Below, in pieces: positions 18,741 to 63,038 of a stretch of DNA of 64,000 nt (within the stretch, counting starts at the first letter, position 1; every line of letters starts with the position of its first letter). The notes under the pieces are model-generated. The model ran no database searches and was not told where the DNA came from. It saw only the letters and a list, made by a program, of their open reading frames with translations. Source of the DNA: Lophium mytilinum (taxonomy: Eukaryota > Ascomycota > Dothideomycetes > Mytilinidiales > Mytilinidiaceae); the NCBI GenBank assembly GCA_010093605.1, contig MU004185.1, forward strand, positions 889,334 through 953,333, written 5' to 3'. Position numbers and translations under genes: made by a program.

Positions 18741-18765
18741 GCGGCTGTAGCTCAGCGGTAGAGCA

Positions 18766-18814
18766 GTGAGTGACTTCTACAAACGTGGAAAACAACAAAC
18801 TAACAGCGCCATAG
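18766..18814 (+). other. 49-nt spliceosomal-type insert inside tRNA-Cys
   Basis: The insert begins GTGAGT, contains AACTAAC at 18797-18803 and ends CATAG about 11 nt later. Donor, branch site, acceptor and length match the mRNA introns of neighbouring genes (for example 50, 50, 51 and 54 nt). It lies after tRNA position 26, where no standard eukaryotic tRNA intron sits. Confidence 0.7.
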
Positions 18815-18825
18815 TCTGACTGCAG

Positions 18826-18832
18826 TAGTGCT
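18826..18832 (+). other. 7-nt canonical-position tRNA intron
   Basis: The segment TAGTGCT lies between G37 and A38, the standard site for eukaryotic tRNA introns. Its TGC is complementary to the GCA anticodon, as in the anticodon-intron pairing recognised by the tRNA splicing endonuclease. Confidence 0.7.
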
Positions 18833-18874
18833 ATCAGAGGGTACTGAGTTCGACTCTCAGCAGCCGCTAGAATC

Positions 18875-18882
18875 TTTTTTTT
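18875..18882 (+). terminator. RNA polymerase III terminator of tRNA-Cys
   Basis: Run of eight T residues 6 nt after the end of the tRNA; a T tract this close downstream is the usual Pol III stop signal. Confidence 0.8.
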
Positions 18883-26042: not shown

Positions 26043-27191
26043 TTAGTCTTCCATTCGAATAGGCATATTATTAGTAAGGCCATTAACCGTAGTGCCTGAT
26101 GTAGCGTCCTTGGTGGATTCTTCTCCTTCCTGGCCATCGGTCTTTGCTTTCTTCTCCTGTCTCTTGACCTCTCGCCTCGGCACCGGCTTCGCGGAGTTTC
26201 CTGCGGGAGACCCTCCATTGCTATTCATAGCATCAGCCTTACGCTTCTTTTGCGCTTCTGCCTTTTCTGCTTTTGACAGTGCCGGCGCTTTGGTCACTGG
26301 CTCTGGCTTCTCCCCACCGTACACCACATCCACGACGCCCCTAAAGCTCGTCCGCTTGAGCTGCGCCGTGACAGTCACACCCCTCGCCTCTTTGCACACC
26401 GCGTCCTTGCCCCTCTCCTGCCCAAGCCCCCACACTGACGCAACATTTATAACATCGGACGGGGCGCGACACGCCAGCGCCGTCTTCGCCTCGCTGCTGA
26501 TGACTAGCCCTCGGCCCCTCGTCGCGCGAATCAGCCCCACCACGTTTCCAATCAGATTTCTCCGTGCGGCACCATCCACAGCTAGTATTCCAGGCGCATA
26601 GCATATCTCGAAGCGCACCCCGCGCTCAATGGCTTGTCCTAGCATCTTGAACTTGAAGTGGAAGCCCAGCCGCTGTGTCAGGTCCATCGAGATGAGGTCG
26701 CAGTCTAGCGACTCGCAGGCTTGTTTGAGGGTGCGTTCGTCTGTGGGCCGGATGGCGAGGATGTCGTAGGCGGCGGAGAGCTGGGAGATGCGGTGGTTTT
26801 GGGAGGGGTCTGCGAGGATGAGGGTGCAGCGGCGGAGGAAGCGGAGGCGAGGGGGTGTGGAGAAGGGGAGGGTTGTCGGGATAGGGCAGGTCTGGTGAGA
26901 AGTTTGTGTCAGCCATAGTAGAGAATTGGTAGCGACTTTCGCCGATAGTGAACACTGTGCGCTATTCTAGAAATATTTATTGAAGTTGTAAAGGGGGCAA
27001 ACTCACCAAGTCGGCGGGCAGCTTCCCTGAAAGTGTATGGGTGAGGGCGACCACATCGTATCCTACTATGAAGAGTCAGAACTGAGGAAGCTGCATTTAA
27101 GCAAACGGGACTTACATTCGTCCAGGAAAGCAATGGTGCGCTGCAGCTCTCTGTCGGCGGCACTCCAAGGGATGTTCAAGTCGTAGAACAT
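26043..27191 (-). CDS. RPP1: Ribonuclease P/MRP protein subunit Rpp1 (Rpp30 family)
   Basis: Subunit of nuclear RNase P and RNase MRP, needed for tRNA 5' end maturation and rRNA processing. Exons are 27116-27191, 27007-27065 and 26043-26891 (introns 50 and 115 nt); 327 residues. The N-terminus MFYDLNIPWSAADRELQRTI is the usual start of the family's PHP-like TIM-barrel fold. Further Rpp30 marks are YDVVALTHTLSGKLPADL, AAYDILAIRPTDERTLKQAC, CDLISMDLTQRLGFHFK, GVRFEICYAPGI and GRGLVISSEAKTALACRAPSDVINVASVWGL. After about residue 245 the chain is Lys-rich and disordered, with a nuclear-localisation-like KRKADAM and RREVKRQEKKAK. The gene is back to back with CKA1 across 470 bp and convergent with the secreted-protein gene, with 90 bp between the stops. 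Confidence 0.93.
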
Positions 27192-28904: not shown

Positions 28905-29571
28905 CCGATACCCATCTAGTTTTCTTCTATCCCTTTTGGCGTCTGCATACGTACCATATCCTCCCCTCCCGCCCAACCCCTGTCGACCAACTGCTGGATT
29001 GCACCTACTGGCAAGAGTGTCTGGACGCGAAAATGACTTTCCAAATCAACGACATTACCTCGACAAGACTTGCTCATACTGTCTTTGAGCAAAAACATTC
29101 AAATCTGAAATAGACCAGCAGCGGTAGCCACATTAACACTGGGGCTCGGGTCGCTGCCTCTTTACCAACACCCCGGGCGACCTAGATGCAAGTAAAAAGG
29201 TCGTTGAAGGAAAACGGAACGACGCATTATACTGATCTCCTGCGGCGTCAGGGAATCGCGGACACAGTCGTAGGATACTGGGTCGCCGGATGAGATGCTC
29301 TTTTTGGACTATCCCTCGTGATGCATGGAACAGTGGCTTTCCTTCAAGTAGATATCCAAAAGAGATAATGTCTTTAACAGGGGACGCGTGCTGTGACTCC
29401 AAGGCGTACCAAACAGGTTTAGCCAATTCATAATCGCGGGTTATGGGTGTGCTATGAACACTTTGACTGTAGGTAAAACCTCGAAAATGCCCCCCACCTA
29501 GCCTTGGCGCGCTAAAGTTTGACTCACGTGGGTCTTCATGCGGGACCTTCGACTCACAACCGACTTTTTGT
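28905..29571. other. Intergenic region between CKA1 and VAS1
   Basis: About 0.67 kb with the CKA1 3' UTR and the VAS1 promoter. No further gene is supported. Confidence 0.5.
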
Positions 29572-32500
29572 ATGATCAGAACTATACCCCTCCACCGCGC
29601 GCTGCTCCTGCGCATCCCTCGCACTACCCACTCCATTGCTTCTCCAATCCACTCAATTCGACCTCTGGCTGGACACCAACGCCATACTTTCACGAAAATG
29701 GCGCTTAACGCCGCTTCCCACAACCCCACGGGCGACCCAACTGGCCCTGTGACTGGCGCTCCCCCGAGCCTGAGCGATGACATCAAGAGTGAAATTGTGG
29801 GAGCTGCGAGCTCAGACGCCGTGGGACAGTCCGCGCCTGGCAAGGATGGGGGCGAGAAGGGCGTTGCGAAGAAAGTAAAGACGGAGAAAGAGCTTGAGAA
29901 GGAGCGCAAGAAGGCCGAGAAAGACAAGAAGTTCCAAGAGAAGCAAGCGAAGCTAAAGGGCGGGGACGGAGGCAAAGCTGGGAAGGCGGCTGCGAAGCCA
30001 AAGGAGAAGAAAAAGAAGGAAGAGGCGGAGGTGCTGCCGGCGTACGTCGAGGAGACACCCAAGGGCGAGAAGAAAATCCTGAGGTCGTTAGATGACCCGT
30101 ACACCAAGGCGTATATCCCAAAGGCTGTGGAGAGTGCGTGGTATGACTGGTGGGAGAAGGAGGGCTTCTTCCAGCCCGAGTTTGTGGATGGGGAGGTCAA
30201 GCCTGCCGGACACTTCGTCATCCCAATTCCTCCCCCGAACGTCACTGGAGCTCTACACGTCGGGCATGCTCTCGCTACCGCTTTGCAGGATTTGTTGATC
30301 CGTTGGAAGAGGATGAAGGGCTTTACTACACTGTATCTACCGGGCTGCGATCACGCTGGTATCTCTACCCAGAGCGTTGTGGAGAACATGCTATGGCGAC
30401 GAGAAAAGAAGACACGATATGATCTGGGACGGCCGGCCTTTGTCGAACGAACATTCGCTTGGAAAGAGGAATATCATTCCAAGATCAACAGAGTTCTAAG
30501 GCGAATGGGAGGCAGCTTCGACTGGACACGCGAGGCTTTTACCATGGATAAGAACTTGAGCGCCGCTGTCACCGAGACATTTGTGAGACTACACGAGGAA
30601 GGTCTGATCTATCGCGAAAACAAGCTTGTCAATTGGTGCACGAAACTCAACACAGCTCTCTCGAATCTAGAAGTCGACAACAAGGACTTGGAAGGTCGCA
30701 CACTATTAGACGTCCCAGGCTACGACCGTAAGGTGGAGTTTGGATGCATTACTACATTCAAATATCCTTTGGATGGAGAGGATGGATTCCTTGAAGTGGC
30801 CACCACTCGACCGGAGACTATGCTTGGCGACTCTGGCATAGCTGTTCACCCCGACGACGCGAGGTACAAGCACCTTGTAGGGAAGAAGGCCAAGCATCCC
30901 TTCGTTGACCGACTCATACCTATAATAGCGGATAGCTACGTTGACCCGGAGTTTGGTACCGGAGCAGTGAAGCTCACTCCAGCTCACGACCAGAACGATT
31001 TTGCACTCGGCAAACGACACCACCTTGAGTTTATCAACATCCTGAACGATGATGGCACTTTGAATCATAATGCTGGATCATTTGCTGGCCAGAAGCGGTT
31101 CGATGCTCGCTACACAGTTGTCGAAGAACTTACCAGATTGGGACTCTTCGTGGAGAAAAAGGACAATCCGATGAAAGTAATAGGCTCCTTTTCCCTCAAC
31201 TGAGACTTTTATTCTAATACTAATATAACTTAACTAGGTTCCACTTTGCAGTAAGTCGAAGGATGTGATCGAGCCCCTTATGAAGCCGCAATGGTGGATG
31301 GAAATGAAGGGCATGGCGCAGGAAGCTATCAAGGTCGTTAAGAACGGCGACGTCAAGATTCGACCAGAGAGTGCTGAGAAGACGTATTATCACTGGCTCG
31401 AGAACATCAACGATTGGTGTCTATCACGTCAGCTCTGGTGGGGCCACCAGATCCCGGCGTATCTTGTCAAGTTTGAGGGTCAACAGGTTGACAGCTCAGA
31501 TAACGAGGCGTGGGTGGTTGGCCGGACCGAGGAAGAGGCCAAATCCAAGGCCGAAAAGAAGTTTCCTGGGAAGACATTCACTCTTGAGCGAGACGAGGAC
31601 GTTCTCGACACCTGGTTCTCGTCTGGATTGTGGCCTTTCTCAACGCTAGGTTGGCCAAATCAAACCCATGACCTCGAAAAGCTCTTCCCTACTTCCGTGC
31701 TAGAAACGGGCTGGGTAAGTGAAAGAATCTTCATCGGACTCATCTACCATATACCGAATGCCGTTTTGGCGTACTAACTCACCATGTTTAGGACATTCTC
31801 TTCTTCTGGGTTGCCCGCATGATTATGTTTTCTCTTCATTTGACCGGAAAAATACCCTTTAATGAGGTTTACTGCCATTCTCTCATCCGAGATTCAGAAG
31901 GCAGAAAAATGTCCAAATCTCTAGGAAACGTCGTTGATCCTGTAGATATCATGGACTCCATCACACTACCAGAGTTGCACGAGAAGCTGTTGATGGGCAA
32001 CCTCGATCCTAAGGAGCTCAAGACTGCCGAGAGGTACCAAAAAACAGCGTTCCCTAACGGAATTCCCGAGTGCGGCGCCGATGCCCTGCGTATTGCGCTA
32101 TGTGGATACACCACGGGAGGTGGAGGTAAGTTACCGAACTACTTCCTCGTTCAGCACATGTTTGCTAATTCGTTTCTTCAGACATTGCCTTCGACGTGCA
32201 GGTCCTTCACGGCTACCGTCGATTCTGTAACAAGGTGTACCAAGCCACGAAGTTTGTCCTCGGTCGCATCGGCGAAGACTTTGTCCCGCGAAAAACCGTT
32301 ACGAAGTCAGGGCAAGAGTCTCTGTCAGAACGATGGCTTCTCCACAAATTTTCCAAAGCGGCTAAGGAGATCAACGAGAAACTCGAGGCTAGGGAGTTCA
32401 GCAACTCGACCCAGGTTGCGTACAAGTTTTTCTACAACGACATCTGTGACACATTCATCGAAAATTCGAAAGCGATCTTCGAAGACGAGTCCAGCACGCC

Positions 32501-33247
32501 AGAGCAGAAGGAGAGCGCGAAGAATACACTTTACACTGCGCTAGAGGGCGGTCTCACTATGCTCCACCCATACACACCATTTTTGACTGAGGAGCTTTGG
32601 CAGCGCCTTCCCAGACGCCCAGAAGACTCGTGCCCCTCTATCACACGGGCGAAGTACCCAGAGCACCAGCCCGAAATGGACGACCCGGAGGCAGAGGCAC
32701 AGTATGAGCTCGTAATCGGCTGCTCGGCTGGTATACGTTCGCTCATGGCAGAGGTAAGTTGCATGACCTCTTTTGTCCCTTTTCTTTTAGGACAAATATT
32801 GACTAGAGATTGTAGTACGTAATCAAAGAAGACGGCCATGCCATCGTCCAAGCCCTCACCTCCTCCGCCTTGGCCACTGCAACTGCCGAGACCCTGGCCA
32901 TCAAGGCCCTTGCGGCTAAGGGCGTCGCCACCGTCTCTATCATCGGCCCTGACGCGCCGGCACCTACTGGCTGCGCTGTATACAGCGTCGGCACAAGCGC
33001 GACCGTGTTCGTCGAAGTGAAAGGCCGTGTAGACCTGGACGCGGAGATCAAGAAAGGCACGGAGAAGATGAAGAAGGCCGCGGAGGGTGTAGAGAAGCAG
33101 AGGAAGGTGCTCGGTGCGCCAGACTTTGAGCAGAAGGTCAGTGGAGCTGTGCAGCAGGCTGAGAGGCAGAAGCTGGAAGACTTCCTGGCAGAGCAGCGGA
33201 ATAGAGAGTTGAGCATCCAGCAGTTTCAGCAGTTGAAGCTAGCGTAG
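29572..33247 (+). CDS. VAS1: Valyl-tRNA synthetase, probable dual mitochondrial/cytosolic
   Basis: Class I synthetase that charges tRNA-Val and edits misactivated Thr. Exons are 29572-31176, 31238-31714, 31792-32125, 32182-32753 and 32816-33247; the long form has 1,139 residues. The first ATG gives [21 protein letters not shown], a basic, Arg-rich, acid-free mitochondrial presequence; an in-frame ATG at 29698 (residue 43) starts a cytosolic form [17 protein letters not shown]. This two-start arrangement is known for yeast VAS1. A Lys/Glu-rich appendix (about 90-165) is typical of eukaryotic ValRS. HIGH motif is HVGH (229-232, in [19 protein letters not shown]); the editing CP1 domain carries [10 protein letters not shown] and AVHPDD; KMSKS is at 733-737 ([10 protein letters not shown]). 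The anticodon-binding helical domain and a C-terminal coiled coil (about 1060-1139, [20 protein letters not shown]...) end the protein. Complete. Confidence 0.95.
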
Positions 33248-61573: not shown

Positions 61574-63038
61574 AGCCTGTCTATAAATCGTCTTGTTGAT
61601 GTCGAAGCATAGCAATGATTTGTTGTCGCATCGTAAACTGAACCAAGTCTCATAGTTCTCGCACCCCTGAGACCTCATCTGACTGAACGGAGTTGGTCTT
61701 CTGGGTACACCTTTTTTTGCATGGCATGCGGCTTGCTTACGCACAGATCTGACAGGGTCTCATCGAATTTCTTCTTTCTTCTCCTTTATCGATGATACCA
61801 CCTCTTCGCGAATTGCTTTCTTCTCAAATTTCCGCGGTTGCAAATGGAAAGCACTGTTGAGTCGGGCGCGACGAACTTCGAGAATCGGAAAGTCGAAATG
61901 AACAAATACGAAAATAGGAAAAACGGATCAGCACTGGATTGCTTTTTATCTTTCACAGCGCAGATTGGAGCGAGCTAGTACTGTTGGTCTGGTCTCCACA
62001 GGAGGCTGTTCGTTTGCGGACATGGGGCATTTGGGTACACAGGAGTTTCTCACTCGTGTTTAGTTCTGGTCAAAGAGTAAGTGAGTTGTGGACAGATTTT
62101 GTTTCTTGTTTTGTTTCACTGCACAGCGTGGGCGGTTGTCCGGCGGTTGGCTGGCTTCTGGTTGGTTCTGCGGTGGCAGCCTGATCGGCCTCCTTTCGAC
62201 TGCTTCGACTTTCTGGACCTTGACAACGACGGCGGAAGGGCAAGCTTGACACCTTTCGAGTCGGAAACGTGGCAAGAGGGATTCGAACCGCGCTAGCACG
62301 GGGCTCACCACTGCCCTATCCCTCCCCGGCCTCGAAGTATGCTTACGGAAAGAGTCGATTGGACTTTGTTGTTGGTGGCTTGGTTGGTTACTACTTGTAT
62401 GGGGGCGAAGACTTAATGCATTGTCCACCCCGTTGTTTTGCGGCATGTTCCTGTTGTCTGCAAAGGAAGCGGCGGATGTAGGATTGATAGGCGTTGTTTC
62501 ATGTATGGAATCTTGCTTCTTGAGACCGGAGTGGAAGGGACTTCAGATCAGATGATCCATTTTTGGGGGCTTCGTGTGATTTGTTCAGAGGTGTGAGATG
62601 CTGTGGTTAGGATACGGGCGTGACATATGTGCGACGTCTTTGTACGAATGTGCTGGTCGGGAACGACAGCATGCCCCCCTCCCCCATTCCTCTACCCCCT
62701 TCAGCGCGATGCACCCTCAAGAGAAGACCTCCAAGAAGTCCGACTATATCTTAACCTGTGCCCTTTCGTAGCGGCAACGAAGTAAAGCACAGCTGTTAGG
62801 CACGCAAGAACTGCAGTCCACTTGGAATGCGGTATGTACAATAAATCGCCGTACTCCTAAACAAAACTTCCAAAAGCTGATTCGGATTTAGCCCCCACAC
62901 CACAACGGGCATGGCGTGATTTGTGGGCGGTTAGAAGGTCTTCCCTGCGTCCTTAAACTCAGCCCTCTCCTCCCTTCGGCATTATTTCAATTCTCATCTA
63001 GCATCTACAAAACACAGTTTGCGCAATTTTCCCTGACA
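61574..63038. other. Intergenic region between LRG1 and the HET gene
   Basis: About 1.46 kb with one tRNA-like remnant (62267-62325) and no supported protein gene. Confidence 0.5.
62267..62325 (-). tRNA. tRNA remnant, Ser-like 3' half (truncated)
   Basis: The minus strand reads GGGCAGTGGTGAGC (A-box-like), then GCGCGGTTCGAATCCC (B-box and T loop) and CTCTTGCCACG. The 3' part resembles fungal tRNA-Ser 3' ends. Only about 18 nt separate the two boxes, too short to hold an anticodon arm, and the T stem has a mismatch. This is therefore a truncated tRNA fragment, not a working gene. Confidence 0.35.

Follow-up and report, generated by a model that had tools for sequence, protein, structure and literature searches.

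Why should a nuclear tRNA gene hold, between its D and anticodon arms, an insert with the look of an mRNA intron, and what would remove it? The gene lies in the window (the whole stretch of 64,000 nucleotides analysed, G000:C5:889334-953333, from a 43.2-Mb assembly of 24 contigs), and a DNA search matches it at a single place in the genome. A preliminary description of the window had placed a tRNA-Cys gene at 18741..18868. These coordinates proved exact: with the insert left in, Rfam RF00005 scores 39.2 bits across the whole length (gathering score 29; E 9.6e-05 for the window), and a tRNA model made from 25 tRNAs of the same genome, among them the spliced form of this gene itself, gives 43.1 bits. 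Once 18766-18814 is taken out, an independent parser finds 7/7 acceptor, 4/4 D, 5/5 anticodon and 5/5 T pairs, the anticodon GCA and U73, which bears out the four perfect stems described earlier, and ARAGORN names the spliced form tRNA-Cys(gca). The gene has the cloverleaf, the anticodon and the Pol III terminator (a T8 run) of a nuclear tRNA gene. The account of its introns was incomplete: the 26/27 insert stands, but a canonical 7-nt intron at 37/38, which is the reason for the 14-nt anticodon loop, had been overlooked.

Canonical eukaryotic tRNA introns lie at 37/38 and are removed by the SEN endonuclease. The 7-nt intron occupies this site, whereas the 49-nt insert does not. The insert can be excised in a single register, in which it has GT-AG ends, and the GTGAGT start, the CTAAC motif and the final ATAG noted beforehand are all present. 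It has both U2-type ends and a branch motif at a constrained distance. A bulge-helix-bulge at its junctions would have only one of the four central pairs. An alternative fold that uses the 49 nt had been named as a possible objection; when the unspliced 128 nt are folded to minimum energy, the prediction still shows all four stems (acceptor, D, anticodon and T) and an insert that is in large part paired with itself; the T stem is absent from the centroid structure. The insert is dispensable for the tRNA fold.

We interpret the insert, with high confidence, as a U2-type spliceosomal intron that interrupts a Pol III tRNA gene and would be removed by the spliceosome before SEN and a ligase act; 15 tRNA genes of this genome hold at least 16 such introns in all. 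A single Pol III precursor would end at the T run; the spliceosome would take out 18766-18814 in the nucleus, which would restore the usual distance between D arm and anticodon arm; SEN and ligase would then excise the 7-nt 37/38 intron. SEN reportedly takes its measure from the body of the tRNA (available sections of PMC4090602) and would therefore need an ectopic intron in the anticodon stem, or in the gap between the D and anticodon arms, to be gone first. It is from sequence that we infer Pol III transcription, the spliceosome as agent, the order of the two steps and the function of the mature tRNAs.

Table 1. Features of the tRNA-Cys(GCA) gene (positions in the window) and tRNA genes of the genome with inserts outside 37/38.
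Feature or gene	Location	Strand	Insert site	Insert length	Basis or remark
tRNA-Cys(GCA) gene with two introns	18741..18868	+	26/27	49 nt	Rfam RF00005, own-genome tRNA model, ARAGORN on spliced form
Exon 1: acceptor 5' strand, D arm, position 26	18741..18765	+			Cloverleaf parse
Spliceosomal-type intron, GTGAGT...ATAG	18766..18814	+	26/27	49 nt	Single register, GT-AG, branch-like motif, no bulge-helix-bulge
Branch-site-like motif CTAAC (would-be branch A 18803)	18800..18804	+			Starts 15 nt from intron 3' end
Exon 2: anticodon stem 5' strand, loop, anticodon GCA (18822-18824), G37	18815..18825	+			Parse
Canonical tRNA intron TAGTGCT, C32-G anticodon-intron pair kept	18826..18832	+	37/38	7 nt	Parser; predicted fold
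Exon 3: A38, anticodon stem 3' strand, variable loop, T arm, acceptor 3' strand, U73	18833..18868	+			Parse
Eight-T run, Pol III terminator-like	18875..18882	+			Starts 6 nt past gene end
Ala(TGC) L042			9/10	53 nt	
Arg(TCT) L044			53/54	55 nt	
Ser(GCT) L025			Variable arm	51 nt	
Ser(AGA) L039	G000:C5:1138891-1139021		52/53	50 nt	
Ile(TAT) L081			D loop	57 nt	
Leu(AAG) L082			30/31	54 nt	
Asp(GTC) L073, L088, L107			Variable region	56 nt each	
Ile(AAT) L077			D loop	52 nt	
Ile(AAT) L089			28/29	52 nt	
Leu(CAA) L093			D loop	48 nt	
Ala(CGC) L112			26/27	50 nt	
Thr(TGT) L111	G000:C14, T-loop match 1307793	+	D loop; 24/25	51 nt; 50 nt	205-nt gene

The other genes of this kind were discovered by their tRNA features (Rfam, T-loop patterns and an Asp exon), never by intron motifs. 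An Rfam family search of the genome (1346 first-look candidates, 63 scored) gave 42 tRNA matches, a lower bound, since the gene in the window was not listed. A plain T-loop pattern showed no excess over the reversed control (398 against 382 matches) and was replaced by a T-loop-plus-terminator pattern with 95 matches against 5; its C-A-A variant, at 24 against 28, again showed no excess, yet it was through this variant that L111 and L112 were found and that L013b recurred. The T-loop-plus-terminator matches fall, by hand count, into about 76 distinct places (20 known, 4 beside U6 genes, 38 fetched, 14 left out) and those of the C-A-A variant into about 20 (4 already in the set, 6 fetched, 10 left out). 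Fetched were thus 40 loci (the 38 and two other T-loop matches), then the 6, then a third Asp gene. The resulting 63 tRNA-like loci comprise the 42 Rfam matches, the gene in the window and 20 more; given the places left unfetched, the gene list and the share of 15 in 63 describe a sample and not a census. Collections of viral and prokaryote sequences contained no related tRNA or U6 genes, their two matches being, on reading, not tRNA.

Loci were kept as tRNA genes where a full cloverleaf was present, and model matches below 19 bits were dropped (e.g. L069, L070, L076, L080, L104), except that L093 (14.6 bits) and L111 (16.9 bits) were retained by hand for their complete spliced form. L041, L043, L099, L110 and the mitochondrial-looking L038 and L040 are counted among the 63 but not among the 15. 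L099 is tRNA-like with good stems (Rfam 48.9 bits) and has no U33 in its anticodon loop.

The preliminary description was right about the mRNA-type insert as an oddity of this gene, but the gene is not alone: at least 14 further tRNA genes share the trait, so that at least 15 carry 16 inserts outside 37/38, spread over the cloverleaf (Table 1). This strengthens the earlier proposal that a nuclear tRNA gene harbours an intron of mRNA type, which is still the best reading. Excision restores 7/7 acceptor and 5/5 T pairs in all 15 genes, 5/5 anticodon pairs in 14 (4/5 in Ile-TAT) and three to four of the four D pairs, and a run of at least five T begins 2-20 nt past the 3' end in each. A canonical 37/38 intron is present in 12 of the 15 as well, the exceptions being Arg(TCT), Ser(GCT) and Ser(AGA). 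The tRNA-Thr(TGT) gene apparently has three introns, two of mRNA type in the D arm and a canonical one of 32 nt. Matches to a TATA expression in 9/15 upstream regions lack a control and are not used as evidence.

Such genes escape ordinary searches, which is of practical consequence. On the window, ARAGORN reported no tRNA, either without introns or with introns of up to 200 nt, and Rfam with fast filters listed nothing. Among the unspliced genes ARAGORN reports some tRNA in 12/15, six of them with the assigned anticodon and one longer intron, and Rfam recognises 9 of the other 14 at E <=0.1 (L099 is listed too); in L042 the match takes in what follows the insert and some of the insert, but nothing before it. 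The spliced forms are named as assigned by ARAGORN in 11/13 cases (Asp_a and Asp_b left out). The two miscalls, Leu-AAG as Val(TAC) and Ile-AAT_a as Asn(GTT), we attribute to its placement of the 37/38 intron.

The 16 inserts are 48-57 nt long and end in GT-AG (14), GC-AG (one, in Leu(AAG)) or GA-AG (one, in Ser(AGA)). Their first six bases are close to uniform (G in 16; T in 14, with one C and one A; A in 15; A in 13; G in 16; C or T in 15), and each insert has a YTRAY motif whose start lies 14-17 nt before the 3' end. The five inserts with a single possible register (Cys, the three Asp and Ala-CGC) are all GT-AG; the remaining 11 have 2-6 equivalent registers, and the boundary was picked as GT-AG (9), GC-AG (1) or GA-AG (1). 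A spliceosomal template drawn up after the inserts had been seen (GT or GC, YTRAY 12-19 nt from the end, AG) fits 15 of the 16. The same template fits none of the 34 canonical tRNA introns parsed in the genome and 114 of 3,517,170 random 48-57-nt segments (3.2e-5); counted among these 114 are the insert of the tRNA-Cys gene and some introns predicted in protein genes. The exception, in Ser(AGA), starts GAAAGC in its best register and has an otherwise normal branch motif; it may represent a decayed site or decaying gene, or a rare functional site. A second Ser(AGA) gene did not come up among the loci examined.

The length of the inserts is likewise typical of protein-gene introns of the host. 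Tests of 17 reading-frame junctions of the window gave a strong intron at 7, with lengths of 49-110 nt, and an eighth, recognised by eye, has 77 nt. The earlier statement that the 49-nt insert equals them in length is therefore roughly right. The longest T run is 2-3 nt in 15/16 inserts, which might suggest selection against T runs, but this is equally so in 7/8 protein-gene introns, and we make no such claim.

That the ectopic inserts are instead cut by SEN or another protein enzyme, with GT-AG ends arising by chance, has a precedent in Cyanidioschyzon merolae and archaea, where introns likewise occupy many cloverleaf positions, several per gene (available sections of PMC4090602 and PMC3978253). 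SEN must be active in the present fungus, where many tRNA genes have 37/38 introns, and some ectopic tRNA introns of C. merolae and nucleomorphs are without a clear bulge-helix-bulge, as reported in the same sections. Those of the Guillardia nucleomorph are 3-24 nt long and are described there (PMC4090602) as having no known cutting mechanism. The ectopic introns of C. merolae and archaea depend, in these sources, on splicing endonucleases and the bulge-helix-bulge, whereas a four-pair central helix occurs at none of our 16 junctions (maximum three pairs). SEN substrates of this genome also look different, as GT, branch motif and AG are combined in none of the 34 introns at 37/38; the ectopic inserts share nuclear tRNA genes with them, 12 of the same 15 in fact, but differ in position, splice signals and implied enzyme. 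Since length and motif spacing match fungal spliceosomal introns, we consider cleavage by SEN or a similar enzyme very improbable.

The genes might instead be pseudogenes, with intact copies elsewhere supplying the tRNAs. Second genes without an mRNA-type insert do exist for Cys(GCA) (L024), Ser(GCT) (L029), Leu(AAG) (L009), Leu(CAA) (L037) and Thr(TGT) (L013), the 5' site in Ser(AGA) is poor, and short D- and T-arm insertions elsewhere mostly affect a single gene out of many synonymous ones and are taken to mark pseudogenes (available sections of PMC4090602). The count of other tRNA-Cys(GCA) genes that had been proposed as a check gave L024, a gene whose body differs and whose sole intron is a canonical one of 16 nt, so that cysteine decoding need not depend on the gene in the window. 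For Asp and Ile(AAT) no such substitute came to light. With up to three mismatches allowed, a 29-nt exon pattern finds exactly three tRNA-Asp genes genome-wide and a 25-nt 3' pattern exactly two tRNA-Ile(AAT) genes; inserts are present in 3/3 and 2/2, those of Ile(AAT) at different sites. Two of the Asp inserts are identical, and the third has diverged in the middle while keeping GTAAGC, a 19-nt branch region and CAG. As every Asp and Ile(AAT) gene found carries an insert, these are unlikely to be pseudogenes, and both anticodons would depend on insert removal unless more diverged copies were missed. Outside the inserts, the only flaws in the stems of the 15 genes are one anticodon-stem mismatch and some D stems of three pairs, and splice signals in 15/16 would not be expected of random insertions. 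Decay of the whole set is accordingly a most unlikely account.

It is scarcely conceivable that the two-intron cloverleaf is a fitting artefact and the genes have single long 37/38 introns: unspliced, ARAGORN does report Asp(gtc) with one 69-70-nt intron in all three Asp genes, and single introns in Ser(aga) (41 nt), Leu(caa) (66 nt) and Ala(cgc) (50 nt), but this leaves inserts at 9/10 or 53/54 and the exact GT-AG registers unexplained, Asp and Ser(AGA) reach 5/5 anticodon and 5/5 T pairs with the insert excised, and the window insert cannot belong to the 37/38 intron because the flanking D arm and anticodon stem are both complete.

Removal by the spliceosome, the preferred reading, has difficulties of its own. 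Pol III transcripts have no mRNA cap, and in tRNA-Ala(TGC) the first exon comprises only 9 nt plus the leader. U6 RNA is a Pol III transcript, and in fission yeast it is spliced as an mRNA. Introns of mRNA type in fungal U6 genes, to which the preliminary description had pointed, are known (Tani and Ohshima 1989 and Canzler 2016, as cited in PMC5832005), and they occur in the present genome. The 21 matches of a U6 family search are 100-106 bases long in 14 cases and 148-151 in 7. In seven of the 20 examined (L047-L066; C4:327691 was left out), ACAGAGAAG and ATTAGCAT are separated by a GT...CTAAY...CAG insert of 48-51 nt; in 11 this site is uninterrupted, and two are too diverged for the pattern. 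These introns resemble the tRNA inserts as GT-AG introns of 48-51 nt with a CTAAY motif in the Pol III-type gene of a small structured RNA. They differ in that the host is a spliceosomal RNA and not a tRNA, and in that 12/15 of the tRNA genes have a canonical 37/38 intron in addition. The U6 introns lie in the catalytic region, and several of the U6 copies that lack one look degenerate. A T-loop-like (B-box) sequence closely follows at least four of the U6 genes.

Similar comparisons can be made with other structural RNAs. In fungal U3 snoRNA genes the introns are normal spliceosomal ones in a structured RNA, with an RCTRAY branch, a mean branch-acceptor distance of 15 nt and occasional GC-AG ends, and frequent introns are described as known in no small structured RNAs other than U3 and U6 (available sections of PMC5832005); the host is again not a tRNA. 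Spliceosomal introns of ascomycete 18S rDNA, as cited in the accessible part of PMC11889510, are likewise of mRNA type in a structural RNA gene, although this is an rRNA. Eukaryotic tRNA genes have been characterised as limited to one intron (PMC8450103, in the part available). In the literature searched (titles and abstract openings, with few subscription papers or preprints covered), spliceosomal introns are not reported from any nuclear tRNA gene; the stem "spliceosom" has no occurrence in the text of PMC4090602, and the available sections of PMC4494063, PMC4035089, PMC2784804 and PMC11782384 hold no spliceosomal tRNA precedent.

The distribution of the inserts over many sites, including two different ones in the Ile(AAT) paralogues, indicates many separate gains, and these paralogues would, if the inserts are spliced as proposed, constitute a natural experiment in intron gain. 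The inserts of Ile-AAT_a (L077) and Ala-CGC (L112), which interrupt different cloverleaf positions, have their first 15 nt in common, and in 200 shuffles that kept the splice signals the longest common stretch between inserts never reached 15 nt. It is possible that one intron moved between tRNA genes by reverse splicing. The origin by reverse splicing proposed earlier thereby gains a first hint, of a thin kind, from this single pair.

If the inserts are spliced as we propose, the supply of several tRNAs would depend on the spliceosome, uncapped Pol III precursors with very short exons could be spliced, and an order would be set between nuclear spliceosomal and SEN splicing. Some tRNAs of this fungus can probably not be made without the machine that splices its mRNAs. 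We think it likely that spliceosomal introns have spread across many cloverleaf sites, including all Asp and Ile(AAT) copies found, which would make translation directly spliceosome-dependent; many precursors would pass through two unrelated splicing machines in order, that of Thr(TGT) with three excisions, and the introns may be mobile between tRNA genes.

Several further elements came up in the searches. At 62270-62325 of the window, on the minus strand, a 56-nt stretch with a T-loop and a shortened anticodon region has a weak tRNA score (16.5 bits with the own-genome model) and is likely a remnant or a chance match. L067, L069, L070 and L106 form a repeated family with a common hairpin GCCCTCACC...GGTGAGGG and a T-loop-like box downstream; they match no Rfam family at gathering score and possibly represent an undescribed Pol III RNA. 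A second family (L085, L087, L091, L102) shows GGTTCGAGTCC followed by GGACTTCTCC or a close variant, plus a T run, and an Rfam scan of L085, L087 and L091 (L102 left out) gave no match. L080 and L086 are similar tRNA-like repeats with T-loop sequence, possibly tRNA-derived short repeats.

Among the protein genes of the window, parts of a class I tRNA synthetase, interrupted by several short introns and most similar among PDB entries to valyl-tRNA synthetase, lie at 29473-32819, and a gene for RNase P subunit p30 at 26046-26966 on the minus strand. A LanC-like protein encoded in the window supports the reference of the preliminary description to Dothideomycetes, as its closest named relatives include one of Lindgomyces ingoldianus (Pleosporales, Dothideomycetes), with 80% identity.
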